Below are positions 271 through 12,872 of a stretch of DNA of 34,411 nucleotides, piece after piece. Within the stretch, counting starts at the first letter, position 1. The number at the start of each line of letters is the position of its first letter. Position numbers and translations under genes: made by a program. Origin of the DNA: Bacteroidales bacterium (GTDB lineage Bacteria > Bacteroidota > Bacteroidia > Bacteroidales > UBA12077). The notes below the pieces were generated by a model that was not told where the DNA came from, ran no database searches, and saw only the letters and a list, made by a program, of their open reading frames with translations. The DNA lies in assembly GCA_030156305.1 (NCBI GenBank), contig JASGMZ010000004.1:1-34411 (forward strand), in the 5' to 3' direction.

Positions 271-921
271 TCAATGTAGTTTAATAGAGCCTTTCGTTTT
301 ATCCAAAACTTTAAAGAATATTCCATCCTCGTCTTCTGTAAATCCCAGTTTTTTTAAATATTCAACATATTTTTTACTATTCCCGGATGCTTTAACGATA
401 TCAAACCCATCCTGAATAAATCTTTTTCTTAATCTTAAATAGATGTATCGCCCGTTTTTAAAATCACGATATTCGGGAATCACATAATCAAGTCCAACCC
501 TTAGTATATTTCCATCCTCGCGTCGAGCCAAAAATAATCCGGCAACCGACATGTTTCGTAATATAAAAAAGCTAATGGTATTCATTTCAGGTTTATACTT
601 AAATCCGGGAAAGAATTTTTGTATTTCTTTATGATGAAATTCCAGAAATCGTAAAAGGTATTTGTTGTCAGCTCTTACTTCTAGTATTTCAAAAAGTTCT
701 TTTTTCCCATATATGGTTATTAAATAATAAATATCAACAACTACAATAAATCCGTTTAAAAAGCCAACCGGCAATGCGCCAATTAAAAAACCATAAGTAG
801 AAAAAGTAGTAGCTCCAATTAAATTAATCCATCTGAATTTTACGATGGAGCTCATGGTCATGGATAAGGCAATAATTACCGATGCAGCATAACCAATCCA
901 TTCGAGTATGTTTAGTTCCAT
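271..921 (-). CDS. Small membrane protein with C-terminal GNAT-like domain
   Basis: The 216-residue protein has about three hydrophobic segments in its first 70 residues (roughly 6-24, 30-48, 51-70), resembling a YgjV/PQ-loop-type membrane half. A soluble part of about 120 residues follows. That part contains features of a GNAT acetyltransferase fold: a strand near LDYVIPEYR, a basic stretch RLRKRF, an N-x-K-K-Y-V-E-Y helix and a terminal KLGF-type strand. The function is unknown and no substrate can be assigned. It lies downstream of ssnA on the same strand, but a 14-bp hairpin separates them, so it may be a separate transcriptional unit or receive read-through. The GNAT assignment rests on pattern only. 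Confidence 0.65.
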   Translation of the reverse strand: MELNILEWIGYAASVIIALSMTMSSIVKFRWINLIGATTFSTYGFLIGALPVGFLNGFIVVVDIYYLITIYGKKELFEILEVRADNKYLLRFLEFHHKEIQKFFPGFKYKPEMNTISFFILRNMSVAGLFLARREDGNILRVGLDYVIPEYRDFKNGRYIYLRLRKRFIQDGFDIVKASGNSKKYVEYLKKLGFTEDEDGIFFKVLDKTKGSIKLH

Positions 922-984: not shown

Positions 985-2247
985 CTAATTCTTCATTTTT
1001 TCCCAAAGTCGAACTGATTGTTCTTTTGAGAATTCTAATATTTCGGATTCGTTTACCGTTTGCATTTTACGGCCTTTAACGATGATTTTTCCATTAGAAA
1101 TTACATCGTTGATATGATTTGAGTTAATACCAAAAACAAAATGCCCTAAAAAATTATCCTGATTGATTGGGGTAGGTGAGTCATAATCCAAAATGACCAG
1201 ATTATTTTCTCCATCGCCATCGAATTGATTAAGAGCAATATACTCATGCACCTTTCTAAAACGCTCATAAACAGAAGAAAAATCTATGGTATCAAATCCC
1301 TGGCCCACAAAAAATGCTGATTTAGCACTTTGTAGCATATCGCTGTGCATACCATCTGTTCCCAACATGATATTTTTTCCCAATCCTTTGGAATTGAAAT
1401 AACCCACATTGTTATTCAGGTTACTCTCCATATTCTGGACAATATATGCTTTTGATTGGCTAACCAATTTTCGTTCTTTATCATTCAAATGCAAACAATG
1501 TACGAGTATTGATTTTGATGAATCTAATGCTCCAAAGTTATTTAATCGTTCAATAACACTTTTGTTATGATGATTTTGGCAATGCTCCTGATCGTATTTC
1601 CCTTCGGCCACATGAATATGAAATCCTGAATTGTATTTTTGCATTAAGTTAACCGCTTTCTTCATGGTTTCATCACCTACGGTAAAAGATGCGTGTAACC
1701 CTACCAAACCCTGGTTTGATTGTAAATATTTTTCGGTCTCAGCAAGCCCTTTTTCTGCTTTATCCAAACCATCTCTGTCAGTAATTTCGTAGCACAATAA
1801 ATGACTAATGCCCACTTTATCAAAAGCGTTAGCAATAATTTCCAGCGAACCATTAATGTAATTAGGTGATGCATGATGGTCGATAACAAAGGTTGAACCG
1901 GCTTTTGCACAAGCCATCGCTGTATATAAAGCACTGGCTTCAATCATTTCTTTGTCAAGGGATTTATCTAATGTCCACCAAATATATTGAAGGATTTCGT
2001 AAAAATTTTCCGGATTTTTTTTGGGGGATCCCATACCACGAGACAATGCTGAGTACACGTGATGGTGCCCCACGGCAAAGGATTTGGTAACTAATTTACC
2101 TTGGCAATCAATTACCTTTGATGCATTTGAGTTTTCACTATTTGTAAAACTTATTTTTCCGTTTAAACCTTCTTCCACAAGAATGTTTGTGTTCAAAAAT
2201 TTAAGGGTTTTCCAATCGATGTATGTTGCGTTTTTAAGTAGAATCAT
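985..2247 (-). CDS. ssnA: SsnA-type aminohydrolase (amidohydrolase superfamily)
   Basis: This 420-residue metal-dependent amidohydrolase closely follows the SsnA family pattern. It has an N-terminal beta-sandwich segment, the metal motif GHHHVYSALSRGM (H61/H63), IDHHASP around residue 123, HIHVAE in the barrel, VHCLHL, and the late catalytic Asp in LGTDGMHSDM. The C-terminal segment YDSPTP...GHFVFG is also typical. In E. coli, ssnA lies with xdhD in the ygeW-ygfK region, and the family recurs in anaerobic purine-degradation clusters, where it is thought to hydrolyse an oxidised purine ring intermediate. Here it follows the XdhD-like hydroxylase after an 87-bp gap holding a REP-like repeat pair, so the two are probably co-transcribed. 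The exact substrate in this organism is inferred. Confidence 0.88.
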   Translation of the reverse strand: MILLKNATYIDWKTLKFLNTNILVEEGLNGKISFTNSENSNASKVIDCQGKLVTKSFAVGHHHVYSALSRGMGSPKKNPENFYEILQYIWWTLDKSLDKEMIEASALYTAMACAKAGSTFVIDHHASPNYINGSLEIIANAFDKVGISHLLCYEITDRDGLDKAEKGLAETEKYLQSNQGLVGLHASFTVGDETMKKAVNLMQKYNSGFHIHVAEGKYDQEHCQNHHNKSVIERLNNFGALDSSKSILVHCLHLNDKERKLVSQSKAYIVQNMESNLNNNVGYFNSKGLGKNIMLGTDGMHSDMLQSAKSAFFVGQGFDTIDFSSVYERFRKVHEYIALNQFDGDGENNLVILDYDSPTPINQDNFLGHFVFGINSNHINDVISNGKIIVKGRKMQTVNESEILEFSKEQSVRLWEKMKN

Positions 2248-2334: not shown

Positions 2335-4887
2335 TCATTTGTTTCTTAGCAAAGGTAACTTATATCTTCTTATTCCGTCAAATTTGGTTAAAGCGTTGCC
2401 TACTGCAGCTGCTGTGGGTACTAATCCGATTTCTCCAATTCCTTTGGCTCCGTAAGGCCCAACAGGATCTTTTACTTCAATCATTCTTACATCAATTTCT
2501 GGTGTTTCGTGAGCTCTTAAGATTTTCAAATCTTTCATCTTATCACTTATTAAAAATCCATCTTTCATGGGTAAATCTTCGGTTAATGCATAACCAAGTC
2601 CCATGTGTACCCCGCCTTCTACCTGGCCTTCAAAAAGCATTGGGTTCATTATTTTGCCACCATCGTGTGCAGCTATCATTTTCTTTATTTTTCCATTGTC
2701 ATCTAAGATACACACCTGTGCTGCATAACCGTAAGAATAATGGGTAATTTGTTCGTCAACATCTGTTCCTGGTTTAGTAGTCCAGTCGCAGACATATTGC
2801 CCTTTGTACGATTTGCCAACAATTTCTTTTAAAGATTTTGTTTTTAAATCTTTTTTTAATGCTTTGGCCGCATTAATCACGGCCAATCCAACCAATGCTG
2901 TTGCCCGCGATGATGTAGTCATTCCAGTTTTGATTTGTGCATCTGTATCAACAACCACTTCAATAATATCAGGAGAAAGGGATGTTTCCTGACACAATGT
3001 TTGTAAGGCCATATTATGTACCCCTTGTCCCATCTCGGTCCATCCGTGTTGTATACGGATATGATTTTCGGAAATAATATCTATCATTACTTTTGAATCA
3101 TCAATCATTCCATTCCCTACACCTGAATTTTTAATGGCGCAAGCCAGCCCTGCAAATTTTGCCTTTTTAAAGTCATCCTTAACGGCATCTAAACAAGCGC
3201 GAATTCCTACGCCAAAAACTTTTTGTCCGGTGGATGTTTTTAACCCATCAACCAGGGCATTGTCATATCTTATCTGCCATCTGTCGAAATTAGCCTGATT
3301 GCAAATGTCATCGATACAACTTTCCAGGGCAAAACATACCTGGTTGACGCCAAATCCTCGCATAGCTCCAGAAGGAATATTATTGGTATAAACTGTTTTG
3401 GCTTCAATATCAATTTCCGGAATAAAATAACCTCCGGATGCATGTCCCGCCACTCTTTCCAAAACTTTCATGCCAACCGAAGCATAAGCTCCGGTATCGC
3501 CCACAGCTCGTAACTTTAATGCTGTGAGTTTTCCTTTTTCGTCAGCACCCAACTCAATATCCATAAATACAGGATGACGCTTGGGATGCAGGCGTATTGA
3601 TTCTTCTCTTGTTAAGCTTAATTTTACAGGTTTTTGCATTAACCAGGCAAATAATGATGCATGGCCCTGTATGCTTAAATCTTCTTTTCCTCCAAATCCA
3701 CCCCCATTGGGGACAAGTGTTACATGCACTTTTTTTTCGGGTAATCCTAAGATCATAGCTACCTGGCGCCGGTCTTCATAAACACCCTGGCTCTGGCTAA
3801 ATAATTTTAGGCCATTTTTCCCATCCGGTTGTGCTACAGCAGCTTCTTTTTCTAAAAATGCATGTTCTATGCGTTGTGTTTCATATCTTCCTTTGGAAGT
3901 ATATGCTGATTTTTTTAATGTATCTTTGGCATTTCCAATGGTAAATTGAGTAGTATCAAAATGATTGGGCCTTTCATCATGCACCTGAGGGCCGTCAATT
4001 GCTTTAAATACATCGGTTACAGGTTCAAAAATTTCATATTCAACGTTAATTTTTTGAACTGCTTTGCGGGCAATATCTTCGGTTTCGGCAACTACACCTG
4101 CAATTACATCCCCAATATAATGCGTGGTTTCTCCTTCATCAATCATCACATTCCAATCCTGGAGTATTAATCCCACTTTTTTTTCGCCGGGAATATCCTT
4201 TGCTGTAAAAACACGGTGTACTCCGTTTAATTTTTCTGCCTGTGAGGTATCAATTTTTAAAACCCTGGCTTTGGGATGATCACTGAATTTTAGGGCAGCG
4301 AAAAGCATTCCGTCAAGAAAAATATCATCCACAAAATTGCGTTTTCCCAACGCTGTTTTATAGGCTTCGTATTTAGGATGAGCAACACCCACTTTTCCCG
4401 ATGTTTTGGTTATCTCCAGCTGTTTTGTGTTGCGAATTGCTTCACCGGCATACAGCATTGCCTGCTCAATTTTTTTGTATCCGGTGCACCGGCAAATATG
4501 AGGTTTTATTGCTTTTTGAATTTCTTCGATGGTGGGATTTGGGTTATTTTGTAAAAGGATTTTTGTGCGGGTTATAAAACCAGGAGTACAGAAACCACAT
4601 TGAACGGCTCCTTTATTAACAAAGGCTTTGGCAATCGTATCTTTAACATAATCAGGGAAACCTTCGGGAGTTAATATCACAGCACCATCAAGTTTGCCCA
4701 TTTTTGTTACACAAGCCAGTTTGGCTTTGCCATCAATTTCTACTGTACAAGCACCGCATGTTGCTTGTCCTGAGCATCCATCTTTAATCGATGTAATATG
4801 CTTTCCGGTGCGTAAATATTTTAATAATGTTTGATGGGCATCTCCCTTGTAAGTTTCTTTAACACCGTTTAAAGTAAATGTAATCAT
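2335..4887 (-). CDS. Fused 2Fe-2S/molybdopterin hydroxylase, XdhD-like
   Basis: This 850-residue molybdenum hydroxylase is of the xanthine dehydrogenase family. Residues 1-60 form a plant-type 2Fe-2S domain (C38, C44, C47, C59). Residues 90-140 form the second 2Fe-2S domain (C97-x2-C100 and C132-x-C134). The rest is the molybdopterin subunit, with GGGFGGKED, SGAMRGFGV and, near the C-terminus, GAKGIGEIGL carrying the presumed catalytic Glu. There is no FAD domain, as in E. coli XdhD and the 'selenium-dependent xanthine dehydrogenase' family, and no FAD-subunit gene adjoins it. Its start overlaps the stop of the upstream threonine-synthase-like gene by 4 nt (ATGA), implying translational coupling. 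The likely role is hydroxylation or reductive dehydroxylation of a purine or similar heterocycle in the cytoplasm. Family assignment is strong; the substrate is inferred. Confidence 0.87.
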   Translation of the reverse strand: MITFTLNGVKETYKGDAHQTLLKYLRTGKHITSIKDGCSGQATCGACTVEIDGKAKLACVTKMGKLDGAVILTPEGFPDYVKDTIAKAFVNKGAVQCGFCTPGFITRTKILLQNNPNPTIEEIQKAIKPHICRCTGYKKIEQAMLYAGEAIRNTKQLEITKTSGKVGVAHPKYEAYKTALGKRNFVDDIFLDGMLFAALKFSDHPKARVLKIDTSQAEKLNGVHRVFTAKDIPGEKKVGLILQDWNVMIDEGETTHYIGDVIAGVVAETEDIARKAVQKINVEYEIFEPVTDVFKAIDGPQVHDERPNHFDTTQFTIGNAKDTLKKSAYTSKGRYETQRIEHAFLEKEAAVAQPDGKNGLKLFSQSQGVYEDRRQVAMILGLPEKKVHVTLVPNGGGFGGKEDLSIQGHASLFAWLMQKPVKLSLTREESIRLHPKRHPVFMDIELGADEKGKLTALKLRAVGDTGAYASVGMKVLERVAGHASGGYFIPEIDIEAKTVYTNNIPSGAMRGFGVNQVCFALESCIDDICNQANFDRWQIRYDNALVDGLKTSTGQKVFGVGIRACLDAVKDDFKKAKFAGLACAIKNSGVGNGMIDDSKVMIDIISENHIRIQHGWTEMGQGVHNMALQTLCQETSLSPDIIEVVVDTDAQIKTGMTTSSRATALVGLAVINAAKALKKDLKTKSLKEIVGKSYKGQYVCDWTTKPGTDVDEQITHYSYGYAAQVCILDDNGKIKKMIAAHDGGKIMNPMLFEGQVEGGVHMGLGYALTEDLPMKDGFLISDKMKDLKILRAHETPEIDVRMIEVKDPVGPYGAKGIGEIGLVPTAAAVGNALTKFDGIRRYKLPLLRNK

Positions 4888-6134
4888 GAGAACATTTTTT
4901 TCAGATTTCCGATGTTGGGTTCGATTGAATCAGGTATTTTAAGCATGGATTGAACCGCATTAAGATCTTTTAATCCACTTCCGGTTAAAAGTACAACATT
5001 TTTTGATTTATTGTCAAGTTTCTGATGATGATAATAATTCAATAATCCTGCAAAACTTGTTGCAGCAGCAGGTTCTGCAAAAAGTCCTGTATTTTTTGAT
5101 AGGATAGAAGACGCTTTAAGTATTGATTGATCAGAAACGGTAATGTATTCTCCATTATATTTTTGGATAAAGTATTTTACCATATTAAAGTTACGAGGAA
5201 TATCGACCGAAATTGAATCGGCAATAGTATCACTTTTTCTGATTTTAAAATTCTTATGGTTTAGATTTCGGATTAAATTATCGCTTCCCTCTGATTGTAC
5301 GGCAACAATGATAGGTATTTTGTTGATGATTTTGAGGTTTAACAAATCTTCGAAACCCTTGTAAATGCCTGATATAATTACTCCATCACCCACAGGGACA
5401 AAGATTTTATCAGGGATGGTTTCATTTAATTGATCATAAATTTCGAAGGAAACTGTTTTTTTCCCTTCGATGGTTAATGGATTGTAAGCTGTGTTACGAT
5501 TATACCAGCCAAATTCTTTGGTTGCTTTAATACTTAATTCAAATGCATCGTCGTATGTTCCTTTTACAGGGATTATGGTTGCTCCATACATTAAAATTTG
5601 AGTGAGTTTTGCCCATGGAGCTTTTTCAGGTACCATGATAATAGCTTTTTGTTTTTGTGCAGCACAAATTCCAGCCAGTGATGATCCTGCATTTCCTGTT
5701 GATGCAGTAACCAATGTGTTTAATTTATTTTCTTTAGCGTATGCTGAAACTAAAGCTGATGCCCGGTCTTTAAACGAAAAGGTAGGATTTTGTGAATCAT
5801 CTTTTAAAAATAATTGGAAAGGTAATTTATTGTTATCCAGCTCATTGCATTCATATAAAGGTGTGTTTCCAACTTTTAATCTGGGCAAACTAACAATACT
5901 TCTAATAGGTAAAATTTGCAGAAAATTTTCCTTTCTCAAATCATTAAAAAGGATATTTTTCTCTGTATGATTAAAAAAGTTATAAACAATTCTAAGAACT
6001 CCTTTTGGAGGATTTAAATCGTTATTTTCCTTACTACATTTGGGACAAAGATATATTGTTTCAGATGCATTGTATTGTTTTCCACAATCAATACACTCAT
6101 AAATGAATTTTTCAGTAGTGGTTTTTTGTTTCAT
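4884..6134 (-). CDS. Threonine-synthase-like PLP enzyme with zinc ribbon
   Basis: This 416-residue fold-type II PLP enzyme begins with a zinc ribbon (C14-x2-C17, C30-x2-C33). The threonine-synthase core follows: the PLP lysine in SFKDRA (K122), TASTGNAGSSL for phosphate/substrate binding, VPVGDGVIISG and a C-terminal LLTGSGLKD. The architecture matches archaeal-type threonine synthase. However, the neighbours (an XdhD-like hydroxylase overlapping by 4 nt, and a second PLP enzyme upstream) place it in a catabolic block rather than a threonine operon; no thrA or thrB is nearby. It may act as a lyase on an amino-acid-like intermediate of heterocycle breakdown. It could still be a true threonine synthase. 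Confidence 0.8.
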   Translation of the reverse strand: MKQKTTTEKFIYECIDCGKQYNASETIYLCPKCSKENNDLNPPKGVLRIVYNFFNHTEKNILFNDLRKENFLQILPIRSIVSLPRLKVGNTPLYECNELDNNKLPFQLFLKDDSQNPTFSFKDRASALVSAYAKENKLNTLVTASTGNAGSSLAGICAAQKQKAIIMVPEKAPWAKLTQILMYGATIIPVKGTYDDAFELSIKATKEFGWYNRNTAYNPLTIEGKKTVSFEIYDQLNETIPDKIFVPVGDGVIISGIYKGFEDLLNLKIINKIPIIVAVQSEGSDNLIRNLNHKNFKIRKSDTIADSISVDIPRNFNMVKYFIQKYNGEYITVSDQSILKASSILSKNTGLFAEPAAATSFAGLLNYYHHQKLDNKSKNVVLLTGSGLKDLNAVQSMLKIPDSIEPNIGNLKKMFS

Positions 6135-6194
6135 AATATTTTAAACTACTGCGAATTTCTTATTTTTGTTAAAGAATAACAGTCTCTATATTTT

Positions 6195-6202
6195 CAAAAT
6201 TA
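6195..6202 (-). promoter_or_regulatory. Candidate -7 box for the PLP/hydroxylase genes
   Basis: Read on the minus strand, this is TAATTTTG, a perfect match to the Bacteroidota -7 consensus TAnnTTTG, about 60 nt before the threonine-synthase-like start. No convincing -33 TTTG is seen, so an internal promoter is only possible. Confidence 0.35.
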
Positions 6203-6300
6203 AAGGTGTCTGTGTAGTTTTTTAAGGTTTGGTATTCCTGATACTTAAATTTTGTATAAAATTAATTCAGGTTTTATTTTTACTACATCCAGGCACCTTT
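6202..6300. repeat. Inverted repeat between the two PLP genes
   Basis: AAAGGTGTCTGTGTAGT at 6202-6218 faces ACTACATCCAGGCACCTTT at 6282-6300. The arms are nearly complementary (a few mismatches and a short bulge) and enclose about 63 nt. The repeat fills most of the 173-bp gap between the PLP-enzyme stop and the next start. It may be a small palindromic element or an intra-operon RNA structure. Confidence 0.55.
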
Positions 6301-6307
6301 ATGTTTT

Positions 6308-7789
6308 TCAGATATTTTTTAACAACCCGGTTGCTTCGTTGAATTCATTAATCAGTTCATCCCATCGTTTAACCTGGGTAAATTGCTCCTTCCAGATATT
6401 TCTATCGTACCACAGCTTATTTAAATCATCTACTTCTTTTGCTTGTTGTTCAATCCATGTAAAATATTTCAGATTATGTATGGATTTTTTATCATAATAA
6501 CTTAGTTCTTTTGTATAATCAATGGTACAACCAAATATACATTTTTCAAAATCTTTTGCTGCCTGAATTTGATGATAAGAACCTCGCTCATCATTTAATT
6601 CTTTGATTCTTGATTGATACATATCGGCAGAGTCTGTAGCAACAGTAATTATGATGTCATCATCAGTCATTTCGTAATATTTTGCTGTTTTAATGGCTGA
6701 TAACAAGTTTCCTATTCCGGATATCCCAATTAAATGTAAATTATCAATCAATTCTTGATCAATACCCGATGACTTTAAATATTGATGGCCCTCTTTTTCA
6801 TTAAATAAGCGAAGAAGGCGCATACAATCTTCATCGTCTATTGCAGTTACCATATTGGTATTTTTAATATTATGAATCCATGGCACATGTTTGTCGCCAA
6901 TACCTTCAATTCTGTGACCGCCAAATCCGTTCAATAATAATGTTGGGCATTGCAGAGCCTCTGAAGCAACAACTTTGATATTAGGGATAAAAGTCCGTAA
7001 ATAATCTCCTGCTGCAATAGTGCCGGCCGATCCGGTAGCTGAAACATAAGCTGCGAAATTAGATTTTTCGGTTTTTAACTGATTATAAATTTCTGCTATG
7101 GCATTTCCTGTAATATTATAATGCCAGGCAGCATTTCCAAACTCATCAAATTGGTTAAATATGATAGAATCGGGTCGTGTTCGACGAATTTCCCAGCATT
7201 TATCATAAATTTCTTTTACGTTTGATTCACACCCTGGTGTAGCAATAACCTCCGAACCAATCTCATTTTTTAACCAGTTAAATCTTTCCTCGCTCATTTC
7301 TTTGGGTAAAATGGCTATGGATTCCGTTCCCATTAATTTAGAATCAAAAGCTCCGCCTCGACAATAGTTGCCCGTTGAAGGCCATACAGCCTTATGATAG
7401 GTTGGGTCATATTCGCCAGTAGTAATTCGTGGAGCTAAACATCCATAAGCAGCACCAACTTTATGCGATCCGGTTGGAAACCATTTACCTATAAGTAAAA
7501 CAATTCGTGCTTTAACACCTGTAATTTCTTTCGGTAGTTCAATATAATTAACATTCCCAAATAATCCACCTTTTTCTTTGGGCTCATTCTTCCAGGTTAT
7601 GCGGAAAAGATTTAAAGGGTTAATTTCCCATAGCCCTACATTTTTTAATTTATCCTTTATTTTATCAGGAATTAAATCCGGATTTTTTTGTTGTTCAAAT
7701 GTGGGTAGGATAATATTCCTTTCCTTAAATCTTTGTATTGCATTCTTTAATGCTGTTTTATCGGTGACTTTATCAATTATTTCAATCAT
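6308..7789 (-). CDS. PLP-dependent beta-subunit-like enzyme (fold type II)
   Basis: This 493-residue member of the tryptophan-synthase-beta/cysteine-synthase superfamily is distinct from ordinary CysK. Markers are FPTGSHKVGAAYG with the presumed Schiff-base lysine K110, WPSTGNYCRGGA near residues 137-147, SATGSAGTIAAGDYL as the phosphate-binding loop, and the block NGFGGHRIEGIGDKHVPWIHN. I recognise this as the family usually annotated 'pyridoxal-5-phosphate-dependent protein subunit beta', often found beside XdhD/SsnA-type genes in anaerobes. Its reaction is not known to me. It is the first gene of the minus-strand block, transcribed divergently from the Lrp-type regulator, which probably controls it. 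An inverted repeat separates it from the next gene, so polycistronic expression may be attenuated. Confidence 0.8.
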   Translation of the reverse strand: MIEIIDKVTDKTALKNAIQRFKERNIILPTFEQQKNPDLIPDKIKDKLKNVGLWEINPLNLFRITWKNEPKEKGGLFGNVNYIELPKEITGVKARIVLLIGKWFPTGSHKVGAAYGCLAPRITTGEYDPTYHKAVWPSTGNYCRGGAFDSKLMGTESIAILPKEMSEERFNWLKNEIGSEVIATPGCESNVKEIYDKCWEIRRTRPDSIIFNQFDEFGNAAWHYNITGNAIAEIYNQLKTEKSNFAAYVSATGSAGTIAAGDYLRTFIPNIKVVASEALQCPTLLLNGFGGHRIEGIGDKHVPWIHNIKNTNMVTAIDDEDCMRLLRLFNEKEGHQYLKSSGIDQELIDNLHLIGISGIGNLLSAIKTAKYYEMTDDDIIITVATDSADMYQSRIKELNDERGSYHQIQAAKDFEKCIFGCTIDYTKELSYYDKKSIHNLKYFTWIEQQAKEVDDLNKLWYDRNIWKEQFTQVKRWDELINEFNEATGLLKNI

Positions 7790-7949: not shown

Positions 7950-8414
7950 ATGAAACCTCTTGACGAAATAGATAAAAAGCTACTAAATATTCTTCAAATG
8001 AATAGTCGAATTACTATTCGTGAATTATCAGAACAGCTTCATTTATCAACTACACCTATTCATGAAAGAATTAAAAAGCTTGAAAAAGAAGGATATATTC
8101 AACAATACATTACTTTAATTGATCCTAAAAAAATAGGGAAGAAGCTTATTGTTTATATTTCTGTTTCTTTAAATATTCATACAAAAGAGGCTATAGAGGA
8201 ATTTGAAAAACATATTTCTACTATGGAGGAAGTAATGGAAGCTTTTTATGTTTCCGGTAGCTCTGATTTTCTGTTAAAAGTTTACTGTAATGATATGGAC
8301 GATTTTCATCATTTTGTAACCAATAAATTTTCTGTTATTAGGAATATTAGCCAGTTTGTTAGTTCTTTTGTAATGTCGGAATCTAAAGTAAAGCGAAATT
8401 TTCACATAAGTTAA
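7950..8414 (+). CDS. Lrp/AsnC family transcriptional regulator
   Basis: This 154-residue protein has an N-terminal winged helix-turn-helix (LDEIDKKLLNILQ...TIRELSEQLHLSTTPIHERIKKLEKEGYIQQY, residues 4-53) and a C-terminal RAM/AsnC effector-binding domain (about 65-145, with the GSSDFLLKV core). Full length matches the family. It is transcribed divergently from the PLP/hydroxylase/ssnA block, with a Lrp-like palindrome between the promoters, so it very likely senses an amino acid or related metabolite and controls that block and itself. This fits the presence of two amino-acid-type PLP enzymes in the target operon. It is convergent with the AOR gene and separated from it by a bidirectional terminator. 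Confidence 0.9.
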   Translation: MKPLDEIDKKLLNILQMNSRITIRELSEQLHLSTTPIHERIKKLEKEGYIQQYITLIDPKKIGKKLIVYISVSLNIHTKEAIEEFEKHISTMEEVMEAFYVSGSSDFLLKVYCNDMDDFHHFVTNKFSVIRNISQFVSSFVMSESKVKRNFHIS

Positions 8415-8518: not shown

Positions 8519-10273
8519 CTAATTTATTTGTTTTTGGGCATAATCCAATCCGGTTTGAATAAATTCCTTGGTAATCTGTCCGGTTGGATCTTCAGTTTCA
8601 TAAATTCGTTCAGGAATAGTTAGTTTGTCGAAGTTAAATCCTTCGCGAATTTTAAATTGATATTTATTAAGATGTATTTGTCGTCCAATTTCGTGCAATT
8701 GATTCTCATCCAGGTTAAAACCTAACAGTTTTAATCCCTGGCTTACTAATTTTAGATTATAAATTCCACGTGCAAAGAAACATACGGCAATACTCGAGAG
8801 GATTTGTCGAATTGCTTCTTCATCTAATAATTTATCTACAACCTTTTCGGGCGCTAAAGTATTATCGAGTAATTCTTTTTGATCTATCGAATAACCAGCA
8901 TTATCTAAGTGGCTATGTCTGGCTCCCAATAAAAAGCCTAAATATCCTGCAGGGCCTGTATGATACCCCGGCATTTCATTTTTTCCAAATTGCATAGCAA
9001 ATTCTTTTCCACCATATTTATTGGCTGCAAAGTCTACTCCTTTTGCACAAGCTTTAAGAAATGCTGTTTTTGGATGGGTAATTTTATCCACTAATTTGAT
9101 GTATGCATCTGCGTCGCCCCATTTAATTTGCAATTCTTCAATATCAGCTCCAGAGATTTTATTGCGTTCAAGCATTTCAGTAATCCATGCAAGGATAACA
9201 CCCATGCTCATAGCATCAACTCCAACTTCTTCTACCTTATCAATTAATTTAAGCATTTGCGTTGGATCATAAATTCCAACCATTGTCCCTAATGAATAAA
9301 TTAATTCAAAGTCGTAACCTACAGGAGTTGTTTTAAAAAAATAGGGGTCATCTTCATAAGGTTCACGCAAGTAGGCTAAATGAATACAAGCAACAGGGCA
9401 GTGTGCACAAGCCACTCTTCTGGCAAGATGATTTTTTGCCATTTCTTCACCTGTTAAGGGTTCTATAGATTCACTGGTACTTTTTTGCAGGTTTTTAATG
9501 GGTAAAGCTTTGAGTGTATTTAATGTTTTAATATTAACAGGCGTTCCAATATCGTGATATTTTTTCATTACCGGTGAGTCCGTAGCAATGTTGTAAATAT
9601 CATTGTATAATTTTCTATATTCTTTTTTATTGGTTACCTCAATCATCCGTTTACCTGAAACAATAAGCCCCTTTAATTTTTTACTTCCAAAAACAGCTCC
9701 TAAGCCTAATCTGCCAAAATGACGATAGGTTTCCGTAATAACATTAGAATAGGTTACAAGATTTTCTCCTGCCTGGCCAATACGGAATATGGCCCGGAGT
9801 CCTTCGCCTTTTTCGTTCTGTCTGATAACACGCGCTGGAATAGATCCATCTTTCATTCCCCATAAGGTTTCCGCATTTTTGAAAAATACTTTTCCATCAT
9901 GTATCGAAAGATAAACAGGTATTTCACTGGCTCCTTTGATAACAATAGCACCATAACCAGCCATACGGATAGCAATAGCGCTTCTTCCTCCTGCATGACT
10001 TTCGCCAAGATCACCGGTGTGAGGGGATTTAAACATAGCACAGGTTTTTGATGCTAAAGGAAATACACCGGTTAAAGGGCCTACTGCAAATATTATTGGA
10101 CTTTCCGGAGAGAATGGGTCAATTCCTTCAGGACATTCTTCCATTAATAGCTGAGTAGCTACACCTGTACCTCCCAAATATTTTTCAAAAAGTTCTTTTC
10201 GGCCTTTGACCCAAAATTTCTTTTTTGTCAGATCTATATATAATACTCTTGATAAAGTGTCATTTTCATTCAT
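8519..10273 (-). CDS. Aldehyde ferredoxin oxidoreductase (AOR) family
   Basis: This is a tungsten/molybdenum bis-pterin AOR. The N-terminal pterin domain runs LSRVLYIDLTKKK...YLGGTGVATQLL, with CAMFKSPHTG, ESHAGGRSAIAIRMAGY and GRLGLGAVFGSKKLK. The middle carries the 4Fe-4S motif C-x2-C-x3-C (residues 289, 292, 296), with a likely fourth Cys in AVCFFARG. I chose the start at 10273 (584 residues) because AAGGAAG lies 6 nt before that ATG, whose sequence overlaps the ferredoxin stop. The in-frame ATG 18 nt earlier has no such site. AORs oxidise aldehydes to acids, or run in reverse with reduced ferredoxin. The upstream four-cluster ferredoxin is the obvious electron partner. A link to the neighbouring purine-type block is possible but rests only on proximity. 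Confidence 0.9.
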   Translation of the reverse strand: MNENDTLSRVLYIDLTKKKFWVKGRKELFEKYLGGTGVATQLLMEECPEGIDPFSPESPIIFAVGPLTGVFPLASKTCAMFKSPHTGDLGESHAGGRSAIAIRMAGYGAIVIKGASEIPVYLSIHDGKVFFKNAETLWGMKDGSIPARVIRQNEKGEGLRAIFRIGQAGENLVTYSNVITETYRHFGRLGLGAVFGSKKLKGLIVSGKRMIEVTNKKEYRKLYNDIYNIATDSPVMKKYHDIGTPVNIKTLNTLKALPIKNLQKSTSESIEPLTGEEMAKNHLARRVACAHCPVACIHLAYLREPYEDDPYFFKTTPVGYDFELIYSLGTMVGIYDPTQMLKLIDKVEEVGVDAMSMGVILAWITEMLERNKISGADIEELQIKWGDADAYIKLVDKITHPKTAFLKACAKGVDFAANKYGGKEFAMQFGKNEMPGYHTGPAGYLGFLLGARHSHLDNAGYSIDQKELLDNTLAPEKVVDKLLDEEAIRQILSSIAVCFFARGIYNLKLVSQGLKLLGFNLDENQLHEIGRQIHLNKYQFKIREGFNFDKLTIPERIYETEDPTGQITKEFIQTGLDYAQKQIN

Positions 10274-10682
10274 AGCTAACTTCCTTTTCATCTTTGATTA
10301 ATTCTAAAACATCGTATGGGCAATATTCTGCACAAATTCCACATTGTACACAAATTACAGGTTTATTTTGCTCTTCATTCCAAAATACAGCATCAATAAT
10401 GCAAGCTTCTTTACAGAATCCACATCCGATACATTTGGAAGCTTTTAAACGTACTCCGCCATTTTTTTGAGGCACTAATGCCCCGGTAGGGCAAACATTG
10501 GCACAAGGAGGATTTTTGCATGAACGACAAACAATGACGGTATACCCTCTGGATATTCCTCCAGTGGATCGAACACCAATACAGGTGTTTGATAATCCGG
10601 CGTTACCGCTACGCCTCGAACATGCAAACATACAACTCTGACAGCCAACACATCGCATTGCATCTTTTACGGATAGTTTCAT
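10266..10682 (-). CDS. Four-cluster 4Fe-4S ferredoxin partner of AOR
   Basis: This 138-residue electron-transfer protein has four cysteine quartets: C11-x2-C14-x2-C17-x3-C21, C52-x2-C55-x4-C60-x3-C64, C84-x2-C87-x2-C90-x3-C94 and C111-x2-C114-x2-C117-x3-C121. Each can ligate a [4Fe-4S] cluster. The arrangement resembles HycB/CooF-type subunits that shuttle electrons for AOR and other oxidoreductases. Its last codons overlap the AOR start by 8 nt with a strong RBS inside its own coding end, so the two proteins are translationally coupled and probably form a complex. No signal peptide is present, so it is cytoplasmic. Confidence 0.9.
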   Translation of the reverse strand: MKLSVKDAMRCVGCQSCMFACSRRSGNAGLSNTCIGVRSTGGISRGYTVIVCRSCKNPPCANVCPTGALVPQKNGGVRLKASKCIGCGFCKEACIIDAVFWNEEQNKPVICVQCGICAEYCPYDVLELIKDEKEVSYE

Positions 10683-11023: not shown

Positions 11024-11704
11024 ATGCAACTCAACCTGATTGAAAAATTTATAATAATAGCCCTGAATGCTAAAAAAGGAAAATTTGTAATTGATAGTTT
11101 ATCCCTACATTACGGTATTGCCGGAGCCATATTGCTGGAACTATCGGAAATGAATAAAATTGAAATCGAAAAAAAACGATTAATACTTATAGATGATAAA
11201 TTTACTAATGATGAAGTTATTAATGCGTCCTTAAAAATTATAAAAAAATCAACAAAAAAACGAACGGCTAAATATTGGGTAAATAAAATTGGGAATAGTG
11301 CTTCAAGGTATAAGAAGCAGATATTAAAAGATTTGTCTGAGAAAAATGTATTAAATATTCATCAAAAATCGTATTTTTTTGGCCTTTTTAACTTTTATTC
11401 TTACCCCCTTATTGATCGTAAATATAAAGATGAAATAGTTGATCATCTTCTCGAAATTGTTCTTGATAATAAAAAAACAGATTTAGAAAGTTTGTTATTG
11501 CTGAGCTTATTAAATAGCAGTAAATTAAGCCGTACCCTTTTTGCCAATAAAAAAGATTATAGAGTAGCTAATAAACGCATTAAAGAACTTACCAAGGATA
11601 TTGTAATTAGCGATGCTGTTCAAAAAACATTAAAAGAAATACAAACGGCAGTTTTGGTTGCCACAACGTCGGCTTTTTTAGCCGCTACATCGTCTTCAAC
11701 ATAG
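11024..11704 (+). CDS. GPP34 (GOLPH3/Vps74-like) domain protein
   Basis: The 226-residue protein matches the helical GPP34 fold: LNLIEKFIIIALNAKKGKFV at the N-terminus, SLHYGIAGAILLELSEMNKIEIEKKRLIL, a paired hairpin block, ESLLLLSLLNSSKLSRTLF and a C-terminal helix RIKELTKDIVISDAVQKTLKEIQ. In eukaryotes GOLPH3 binds PI4P and sorts Golgi glycosyltransferases. Bacterial homologues are common but mostly uncharacterised and may bind membranes or lipids. The C-terminus is a low-complexity Ala/Thr/Ser tail. Its 3' end overlaps the convergent MFS gene by 20 bp with no terminator between, so antisense overlap of the two mRNAs is likely. Confidence 0.75.
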   Translation: MQLNLIEKFIIIALNAKKGKFVIDSLSLHYGIAGAILLELSEMNKIEIEKKRLILIDDKFTNDEVINASLKIIKKSTKKRTAKYWVNKIGNSASRYKKQILKDLSEKNVLNIHQKSYFFGLFNFYSYPLIDRKYKDEIVDHLLEIVLDNKKTDLESLLLLSLLNSSKLSRTLFANKKDYRVANKRIKELTKDIVISDAVQKTLKEIQTAVLVATTSAFLAATSSST

Positions 11705-12872
11705 CTCTGTTTTTTAAATAGATTACTAAGGTTAATGCTGCCACTATAAAAAAGATTATTCCTGATAACAATAATGCGGCTTGTAAACTGAAAGTATCGG
11801 TATACCATCCAACGAATGGGCCAATTATGGCAAAGAATATTCGGATGACGAAGTTTCTTACCGATAATACGGTAGCCCGTATATTTGAATCGCATAATTT
11901 GTTGATATAGTCTTTTAATACTGGTGTAGCTACTCCACGAACAAAGTAAAAAATAAATAAAATACCTATGCCCCATAGTGCTTGAATTCTGCTAATAGCA
12001 ATATATCCTGCAGGGATTAATATCGTAATCCATAGCAACGTTTTGGTTTGTTTTAATTTGAATTCAATTTTATGTGCAAATATTGCACTAACTCCAACAA
12101 TGAGGTTTAACATAGTCCAGAATATTCCGAAGAGTGTTACGGGCAGGGCAATCATTTCAAAATAAGGTTGAACAAACCAGGCCATGGTTAAGGTAGCAGC
12201 TCCTATGACTGAAGAATAAATGATATTCCACTTTAGCTCTTTATGATCGTAAAGTGCATATTTAACAATTTTTAGAATATCATTTATTTTGAGCTTAATA
12301 ACTTCTCTTTGTTTTTTGGGTTCTATAAGAAGTATAGCTGCCGGTACACCTATGAATGATACGAGAGTTTGTGCATAATAGGGGTATCGTAAACTAACTC
12401 CTGCCAATAACCCACCCAAGACTCCGGCAATGGCTTCGGCAAAGTTTCCAATAGAAACCATTCGGCCTTCAAATTTAATATATTGCTCCTTTTTCCCAGA
12501 CTCCTGGAGGGTATCGTAAAGCATAGCCGAATCGGCTCCGGAAATTAAACTTTGTCCGATGCCTAATATAATTTCTGCAACTAAAAACCCTGCAAAACCA
12601 TAAGAAAAACTGTAAGTTAAAAATCCAAAAAAACCCATTATGGTTCCAATAACTAGCGTTGATTTTCGGCCTAATGCATCAGCAAAATAGCCTGAAGGGA
12701 TTTCTAAAATAACAATTGTCACGGAGTAAATGGCTTGTAACAGAAAAACATGCCGCATGGCCAATCCATTATCTTCATAAAAAAGAACAACAATGGGCAT
12801 AAATAGCATAAACCATTTGGCAATTTTAATTATATATAATTTTAAAATATTGCTATTTAGACTATGCTGCAT
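11685..12872 (-). CDS. MFS transporter
   Basis: The 395-residue protein has about 12 hydrophobic segments. The MFS signature loop between TM2 and TM3 reads GYFADALGRKSTLVIG. A central hydrophilic loop (EPKKQREVIKLKINDILKIVKYALYDHKELKW) separates the two six-helix halves. A glycine-rich region (FAEAIAGVLGGLLAG) follows TM4-5. It resembles drug/antiporter-type permeases, but the substrate cannot be read from the sequence. It is convergent with the GPP34 gene (20-bp overlap) and has its own promoter with a 16-bp palindrome over the predicted transcription start. Confidence 0.85.
   Translation of the reverse strand: MQHSLNSNILKLYIIKIAKWFMLFMPIVVLFYEDNGLAMRHVFLLQAIYSVTIVILEIPSGYFADALGRKSTLVIGTIMGFFGFLTYSFSYGFAGFLVAEIILGIGQSLISGADSAMLYDTLQESGKKEQYIKFEGRMVSIGNFAEAIAGVLGGLLAGVSLRYPYYAQTLVSFIGVPAAILLIEPKKQREVIKLKINDILKIVKYALYDHKELKWNIIYSSVIGAATLTMAWFVQPYFEMIALPVTLFGIFWTMLNLIVGVSAIFAHKIEFKLKQTKTLLWITILIPAGYIAISRIQALWGIGILFIFYFVRGVATPVLKDYINKLCDSNIRATVLSVRNFVIRIFFAIIGPFVGWYTDTFSLQAALLLSGIIFFIVAALTLVIYLKNRAMLKTM

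Follow-up and report, generated by a model that had tools for sequence, protein, structure and literature searches.

A Bacteroidales reductive urate block with two adjacent fold-type II PLP enzymes as the probable replacement of YgeX

The reductive urate pathway and the gene block of contig C117

The anaerobic urate pathway, which is relevant to gout and to nitrogen cycling in gut and sediment, was worked out only in 2025. In the reconstitution by Li et al. 2025 (PMC12507026), urate is converted to yanthine by XdhD, reductive dearomatisation is carried out by YgfK and the ring of dihydro-yanthine is opened by SsnA. HyuA then opens the hydantoin, two ureido groups are removed by YgeW or UacY and by YgeY, and YgeX converts 2,3-diaminopropionate to pyruvate. 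A commentary (PMC12990295) cites an independent study with the same pathway outline. The window analyzed here (34,411 nucleotides, Bacteroidales bacterium) is the entire contig C117 of a 2.59-Mb metagenome-assembled genome (MAG, 78% complete). It carries genes for XdhD, an SsnA-like protein and two pyridoxal 5'-phosphate (PLP) enzymes of fold type II, termed ThrL and PLP493 in this report. Judged from sequence comparison, this block is probably the central part of a reductive urate cluster in which the two adjacent PLP enzymes replace YgeX.

The first-pass annotation of the window had described an XdhD-like and SsnA block with a zinc-ribbon PLP enzyme overlapping by 4 nt and a 493-residue PLP enzyme. 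Open reading frame coordinates and family matches confirm this description; the SsnA-like gene falls just outside the range 2335–7789 that had been assigned to the block. On the minus strand, the order of transcription is PLP493, ThrL, XdhD, SsnA-like and p216:

6308..7789, minus strand: PLP493, CysK-like fold-type II PLP enzyme of 493 aa, extended at both termini and regularly found with ThrL or YgeX (PALP match)
4884..6134, minus strand: ThrL, zinc-ribbon fold-type II PLP enzyme, proposed YgeX replacement (PALP, 9e-70)
2335..4887, minus strand: XdhD/XdhAC-type molybdenum hydroxylase of 850 aa with fused 2Fe-2S and Mo domains (TIGR03311, 877.7 bits)
985..2247, minus strand: SsnA-like amidohydrolase (top NCBIfam matches are SsnA)
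271..921, minus strand: p216, predicted membrane protein with a cytoplasmic C-terminal part, conserved cluster member (membrane character from sequence only)
7950..8414, plus strand: Lrp/AsnC-family regulator, divergent from PLP493 (Lrp/AsnC domains)

The SsnA-like, XdhD, ThrL and PLP493 genes are arranged as one operon, and the Lrp gene divergent from it likely encodes the local regulator. The overlap of 4 nt lies between ThrL and xdhD.

The remaining pathway genes are located elsewhere in the same MAG. YgfK, SsnA, HyuA, YgeW and YgeY were each located in this genome by comparison with the Escherichia coli proteins. Contig C84 encodes HyuA, YgeW and YgeY (36%, 67% and 49% identical to the E. 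coli proteins, respectively) and an XdhC-type factor, and YgeW scores over its cut-off. XdhA, XdhB, MocA and a YgfK that is 39% identical to E. coli YgfK and cut by the contig end are encoded on contig C97. The absence of ygeX, ygeY, ygeW and hyuA noted in the first-pass annotation therefore stands for ygeX only. For the other three a biological absence is ruled out, as C117 stops 270 bp past p216, the last gene of the block, and the genes are on another contig. No TIGR01747 match and no PALP match of the YgeX type was found in this genome (78% complete), and the same-genus genomes have no TIGR01747 match either. Two of these (98 and 100% complete) contain YgeW, PLP493 and ThrL.

The gene order was compared across the 80 top-ranking PLP493 relatives from named genomes (71–85% identity), whose loci were searched for open reading frames, clustered and labeled with NCBIfam. 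Its recurrence among these loci shows that the order is not due to chance. The commonest order is XdhA-XdhB-MocA-YgfK-Lrp(divergent)-PLP493-ThrL-XdhD-SsnA-p216-HyuA-YgeW-YgeY. ThrL is near PLP493 in 58 of the 80 loci, in 48 of them on the same strand and at most 400 nt downstream; in L065 it lies upstream. XdhD is present in 47 loci, YgfK in 49 and SsnA in 34, and the 4-nt overlap of ThrL and xdhD recurs in 34. All 30 loci carrying Lrp have it divergent from PLP493 at a distance of 56–266 nt. On the complete chromosome of G214 (L126), XdhA, XdhB, SsnA, XdhD, ThrL, PLP493, Lrp, YgfK, MocA, p216, HyuA, YgeW and YgeY are found within ~20 kb.

The block is assigned to the reductive urate pathway because the other pathway genes are present in the same genome and the whole set is clustered in relatives. 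XdhD, YgfK, an SsnA-like protein, HyuA, YgeW and YgeY are shared with the pathway of E. coli and Clostridioides difficile (PMC12507026), in the genome itself or in the cluster of relatives. The locus differs in that YgeX is missing and its position is taken by ThrL and PLP493, the Glu606 insertion of E. coli XdhD is absent and ygfM was not found in the cluster. The first-pass proposal of anaerobic purine degradation, with the PLP enzymes as the mark of a variant, is thus upheld. Its suggestion that these enzymes take the place of ygeY, ygeW and hyuA as well is not, as those genes are encoded elsewhere in this genome and, in relatives, within the cluster itself. The replacement concerns ygeX alone.

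XdhD belongs to TIGR03311 (877.7 bits, cut-off 830). It has the Pfam domains Fer2, Fer2_2, Ald_Xan_dh_C and MoCoBD and keeps the catalytic GAKGIGE motif. Glu606 is uninformative as a test for urate reductase activity, as the segment is an insertion that is also missing from E. coli XdhA. The SsnA-like protein stays below both cut-offs (TIGR03314/NF005540; 344.4 bits vs 455.5 and 386.7 vs 444), yet these models are its top full-length matches; its identity to E. coli SsnA is 31% over the full length. A further described relative is the selenium-dependent molybdenum hydroxylase system (Haft 2008, PMC2276186), in which a TIGR03311 xanthine dehydrogenase likewise has YgfK, SsnA and YgeW as neighbors. 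There, YqeB (TIGR03309) is the genome marker for a selenium-dependent hydroxylase. YqeB was found in none of the ten Bacteroidales genomes tested, the present one and nine others; the E. coli control was detected and G477 was the only positive genome. Because YqeB is missing from all ten, the label 'selenium-dependent' taken from the XdhD model match is doubtful here. Of the genes for which the first-pass annotation had proposed a genome search, ygeY and hyuA were found in this genome and ygeX was not.

Co-occurrence with YgeW and exchange with YgeX

In 247 Bacteroidales genomes drawn evenly across the order, YgeW was detected in 63, PLP493 in 63, ThrL in 60 and YgeX in 9, and the positives are spread over dozens of families. 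YgeW and PLP493 occur together in 59 genomes and both are lacking in 180; four genomes have YgeW only and four PLP493 only. The corresponding numbers for YgeW and ThrL are 56 with both, 180 with neither, seven with YgeW only and four with ThrL only. Within the YgeW-positive genomes, ThrL without YgeX is found in 55, YgeX without ThrL in four, both in one and neither in three (Fisher p 2.8e-4). At the level of gene content, this survey shows that PLP493 is tied to the urate pathway and that ThrL and YgeX are near-exclusive alternatives; gene order places them in the same slot.

In three genomes YgeX is encoded where ThrL would be expected, with the orders YgfK-PLP493-YgeX (L122), PLP493-YgeX-XdhD (L123) and PLP493-YgeX-YgeY-YgeW (L136). 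In L122 and L123 it directly follows PLP493, the usual position of ThrL. In G073 (L124), the cluster lacks ThrL and PLP493; YgeX is encoded elsewhere in the genome and groups with E. coli YgeX in the tree.

The pair extends beyond the Bacteroidales. Among 295 genomes of Bacillota, the phylum of L021 (Candidatus Izimaplasma), 18 encode a PLP493-family protein and four YgeX, with both in one genome. ThrL adjoins PLP493 (−35 to +95 nt) in 15 of the 16 retrieved Bacillota clusters, and the sixteenth is L136 with YgeX in the ThrL slot. These clusters usually contain YgeY (69–73% to E. coli), SsnA, HyuA, xanthine dehydrogenase (XDH) subunits, a DHO_dh protein resembling the published UacX and often adenine deaminase. 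The pair is thereby embedded in purine clusters that are complete in other respects, although some retrieved stretches lack one or another of these genes. UASB270 (L065) has the order YgeY-ThrL-YgeW-PLP493. YgeW scores over its cut-off in 13 of 18 genomes, other phyla among them, in which PLP493 mostly stands without its usual neighbors.

From genomics, the substitution of YgeX by the ThrL–PLP493 pair is well supported. Several observations nevertheless weigh against it. The Fisher tests take no account of shared ancestry, and the incompleteness of MAGs blurs single gene absences. PLP493 is missing from four YgeW-positive genomes, two of which have YgeX; neither ThrL nor YgeX was found in three (77–88% complete MAGs); G089 holds both ThrL and YgeX; and G040 has PLP493 without YgeW. 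PLP493 adjoins YgeX in several genomes, so that a simple exchange of two enzymes for one does not cover all cases. Furthermore, ThrL passes the threonine synthase cut-off of TIGR00260 (184.1 bits vs 167.1), and a classical ThrC was not found in several near-complete genomes with ThrL.

If the pair replaces YgeX, the pathway would reach many Bacteroidales (YgeW is present in about a quarter of the 247 genomes) and Bacillota that a search for YgeX misses, and surveys relying on YgeX or on a Pfam PALP hit would misidentify urate degraders. The SsnA network of PMC12507026 names six phyla, Bacteroidota not among them, and marks YgeX by the whole PF00291 family. This family also contains ThrL and PLP493, and therefore the published network could not tell these from YgeX. 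Judging from gene content, the known pathway is more widespread and varied than published in the open-access literature, to which the search was confined.

Candidate reactions of ThrL and PLP493

The residues Cys14, Cys17, Cys30, Cys33 and Lys122 of ThrL are invariant in 35 homologues. The AlphaFold2 model (mean confidence score pLDDT 89) has threonine synthases as top structural matches. ThrL resembles these enzymes (TIGR00260) in its overall fold, with ~30% identity to those of Bacillus subtilis, Aquifex and Thermus, and differs in the replacement of a conserved Arg and in the GNAGN loop, which is GDGVI in ThrL. The motif NSxNPxRxEGQKT is shared by four bacterial threonine synthases of solved structure; the Arabidopsis form is NSLNSLRLEGQKT and that of ThrL is NTAYNPLTIEGKKT. 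Its Arg, which presumably binds the substrate phosphate in the Thermus enzyme, is conserved in all five solved threonine synthases compared and lost in ThrL. All 35 aligned homologues have Thr at this position (Thr221), and 12 Bacillota homologues have Leu or Met; this count leaves out three more Bacillota sequences that the search pattern did not pick up.

With YgeX (TIGR01747/TIGR03528) ThrL shares the fold type and the slot between PLP493 and XdhD or YgeY. It differs in its threonine synthase match, its zinc ribbon and its separate position in the tree. Only a local alignment to E. coli YgeX is obtained (26% over 127 aa), and a Bacillota ThrL stays below the cut-off of the diaminopropionate ammonia-lyase model NF006058 (63 vs 276). 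Asp120 of YgeX corresponds to Thr in ThrL.

PLP493 has an invariant PLP lysine, Lys110, and an invariant Asp299. Altogether, 86 residues are invariant even in comparison with the Bacillota relatives, most of which are 34–42% identical. The model (pLDDT 85) has low confidence at residues 289–300. Foldseek retrieves CysK and cyanoalanine synthases (E about 1e-15, TMt mostly 0.7–0.85), and the CysK cysteine synthase equivalog is matched with 104 bits, below its cut-off of 351. Ordinary CysK enzymes have Ala at the position of Asp299. This residue aligns with Asp232 of Fn1055, a cysteine (hydroxyl) lyase of the CysK family (PDB 5b53), which was pinpointed by comparing the chains of the wild type (5b53) and the D232N mutant (5b55). 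Fn1055 forms H2S and L-serine from L-cysteine and water (PMC9865163). Both proteins contain the HRIEGIxD motif, whereas the identity in the structural alignment is only ~22%, the lysine motif of PLP493 is FPTGSHKVGA and PLP493 additionally has a 70-aa N-terminal and a ~100-aa C-terminal extension.

In the proposed mechanism, purines would be oxidized to urate by XdhAB, which XdhD, YgfK, SsnA, HyuA, YgeW and YgeY would convert to 2,3-diaminopropionate by the E. coli route. The ammonia-lyase that then yields pyruvate would be ThrL (or YgeX); we infer that ThrL catalyzes either the whole YgeX reaction or the final half of it. The role of PLP493 is the least certain: it most likely acts by beta-elimination or beta-replacement on the three-carbon amino acid that ThrL uses, and Asp299 would position water or the beta-amino group. 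Conversion of 2,3-diaminopropionate and water to serine is a tentative candidate for its reaction, since Asp299 and the CysK fold fit a water-using beta-replacement. A complete two-step replacement of YgeX, with PLP493 as a 'diaminopropionate hydroxyl-lyase' (2,3-diaminopropionate + H2O -> serine + NH3) and ThrL as a serine/diaminopropionate ammonia-lyase derived from threonine synthase, is possible but somewhat doubtful. If true, urate carbon would pass via serine, and in Bacteroidota, some Bacillota and other phyla the fermentation of purines would be connected with central amino-acid metabolism. PLP493 is located next to YgeX in G026, G246 and G477; therefore it would do something that even a genome with YgeX can keep. 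If the replacement holds, ThrL and PLP493 would represent two enzyme families whose range of substrates is narrow and open to testing.

Alternatively, the two enzymes could divide the stereoisomers: PLP493 would racemize or specifically cleave D-2,3-diaminopropionate and ThrL would act on the L form only, both being accepted by E. coli-type YgeX. The Thr of ThrL at the position of Asp120 would fit this division. It is also consistent with G073, whose E. coli-like YgeX occurs without ThrL and PLP493. E. coli YgeX is reported to be equally active on both isomers and HyuA to be D-stereospecific (PMC12507026), which would likewise fit. This division is nevertheless unlikely, as YgeX of the PLP493-bearing genomes G026, G129 and G246 keeps Lys77, Asp120 and Asp189, which would make PLP493 superfluous there, and PLP493 resembles L-specific CysK enzymes.

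ThrL could also be the threonine synthase of these organisms, its place in the cluster being fortuitous or serving to reuse nitrogen. Its model score and structural matches agree with this, and the near-complete genomes G097, G198, G024, G138 and G234 have no other thrC match. Second TIGR00260 matches (87–95 bits), as in G214 and others, were considered as classical ThrC, and the three that were read proved to be zinc-ribbon PLP proteins of another kind. In a check by homoserine kinase (TIGR00191), the Bacteroides control genome gave no match. On the other hand, the Arg that is replaced in ThrL argues against a threonine synthase, and a ThrC of the E. coli type is encoded separately in G258. 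Of the 184 YgeW-negative genomes only four contain ThrL, and YgeX takes the ThrL slot, with four of five YgeX-containing YgeW-positive genomes lacking ThrL. Threonine synthesis as its proper function is thus quite improbable; ThrL may have it as a second role. The first-pass annotation had named purine genes elsewhere together with a block tied to threonine metabolism as a counter-case. Genes do lie elsewhere, but the threonine link is disfavored by the residues and the co-occurrence.

That the block serves another N-heterocycle, as the first-pass annotation had considered, is very improbable: XDH-family enzymes act on many heterocycles and PLP493 of G040 is located with XDH and 8-oxoguanine deaminase without YgeW, but all urate-pathway genes except ygeX are present in this and related genomes, Bacillota clusters add adenine deaminase, and the deaminase of G040, too, belongs to a family acting on purines.

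Accessory and neighboring genes

In L116 (G040), PLP493 (60%) stands beside XDH subunits, XdhC and an 8-oxoguanine deaminase that scores over its cut-off; PLP493 may serve a different purine route there. In L035 and L039 (Chlorobi-labeled), PLP493 is upstream of genes for prephenate dehydratase, an aminotransferase and prephenate dehydrogenase, and YgeW is encoded elsewhere in the genome. No partner of PLP493 is shared among the neighbors in the Chlorobi-type and other isolated contexts. The zinc-ribbon PLP proteins of L150, L151 and L152 (~440 aa, 87–95 bits against TIGR00260) form a family that is not classical threonine synthase.

A Pfam/NCBIfam profile search with p216 gave no match. The protein is found in 13 of the 80 relative loci and in L109, L124 and L126, between SsnA and HyuA or adjoining them. 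It has the appearance of a membrane domain fused to a soluble domain and is possibly involved in transport or regulation. On C97, a 576-aa fusion of membrane and NTP-binding parts (L099, 4032–5762, plus strand) is encoded between xdhB and mocA, and related pieces stand near XDH genes in L127.

The cluster of L138 (at 11723–12733) and its counterparts in L137, L139–L144, L146 and L147 encode a carbamoyltransferase that is only 34–37% identical to E. coli YgeW. The closest models are ornithine carbamoyltransferase, and the protein is a possible variant of the ureido-cleaving step.

Adjoining Lrp in the window, genes for an aldehyde ferredoxin oxidoreductase and a polyferredoxin (8519–10682, minus strand) overlap by 26 nt and are probably unrelated to the block. 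They were rejected as electron donor of XdhD, as no relative locus has these genes there, YgfK being usual. Further along (11024–11704, plus strand), a GPP34 (Golgi phosphoprotein 3 family) domain protein is encoded beside an MFS transporter.

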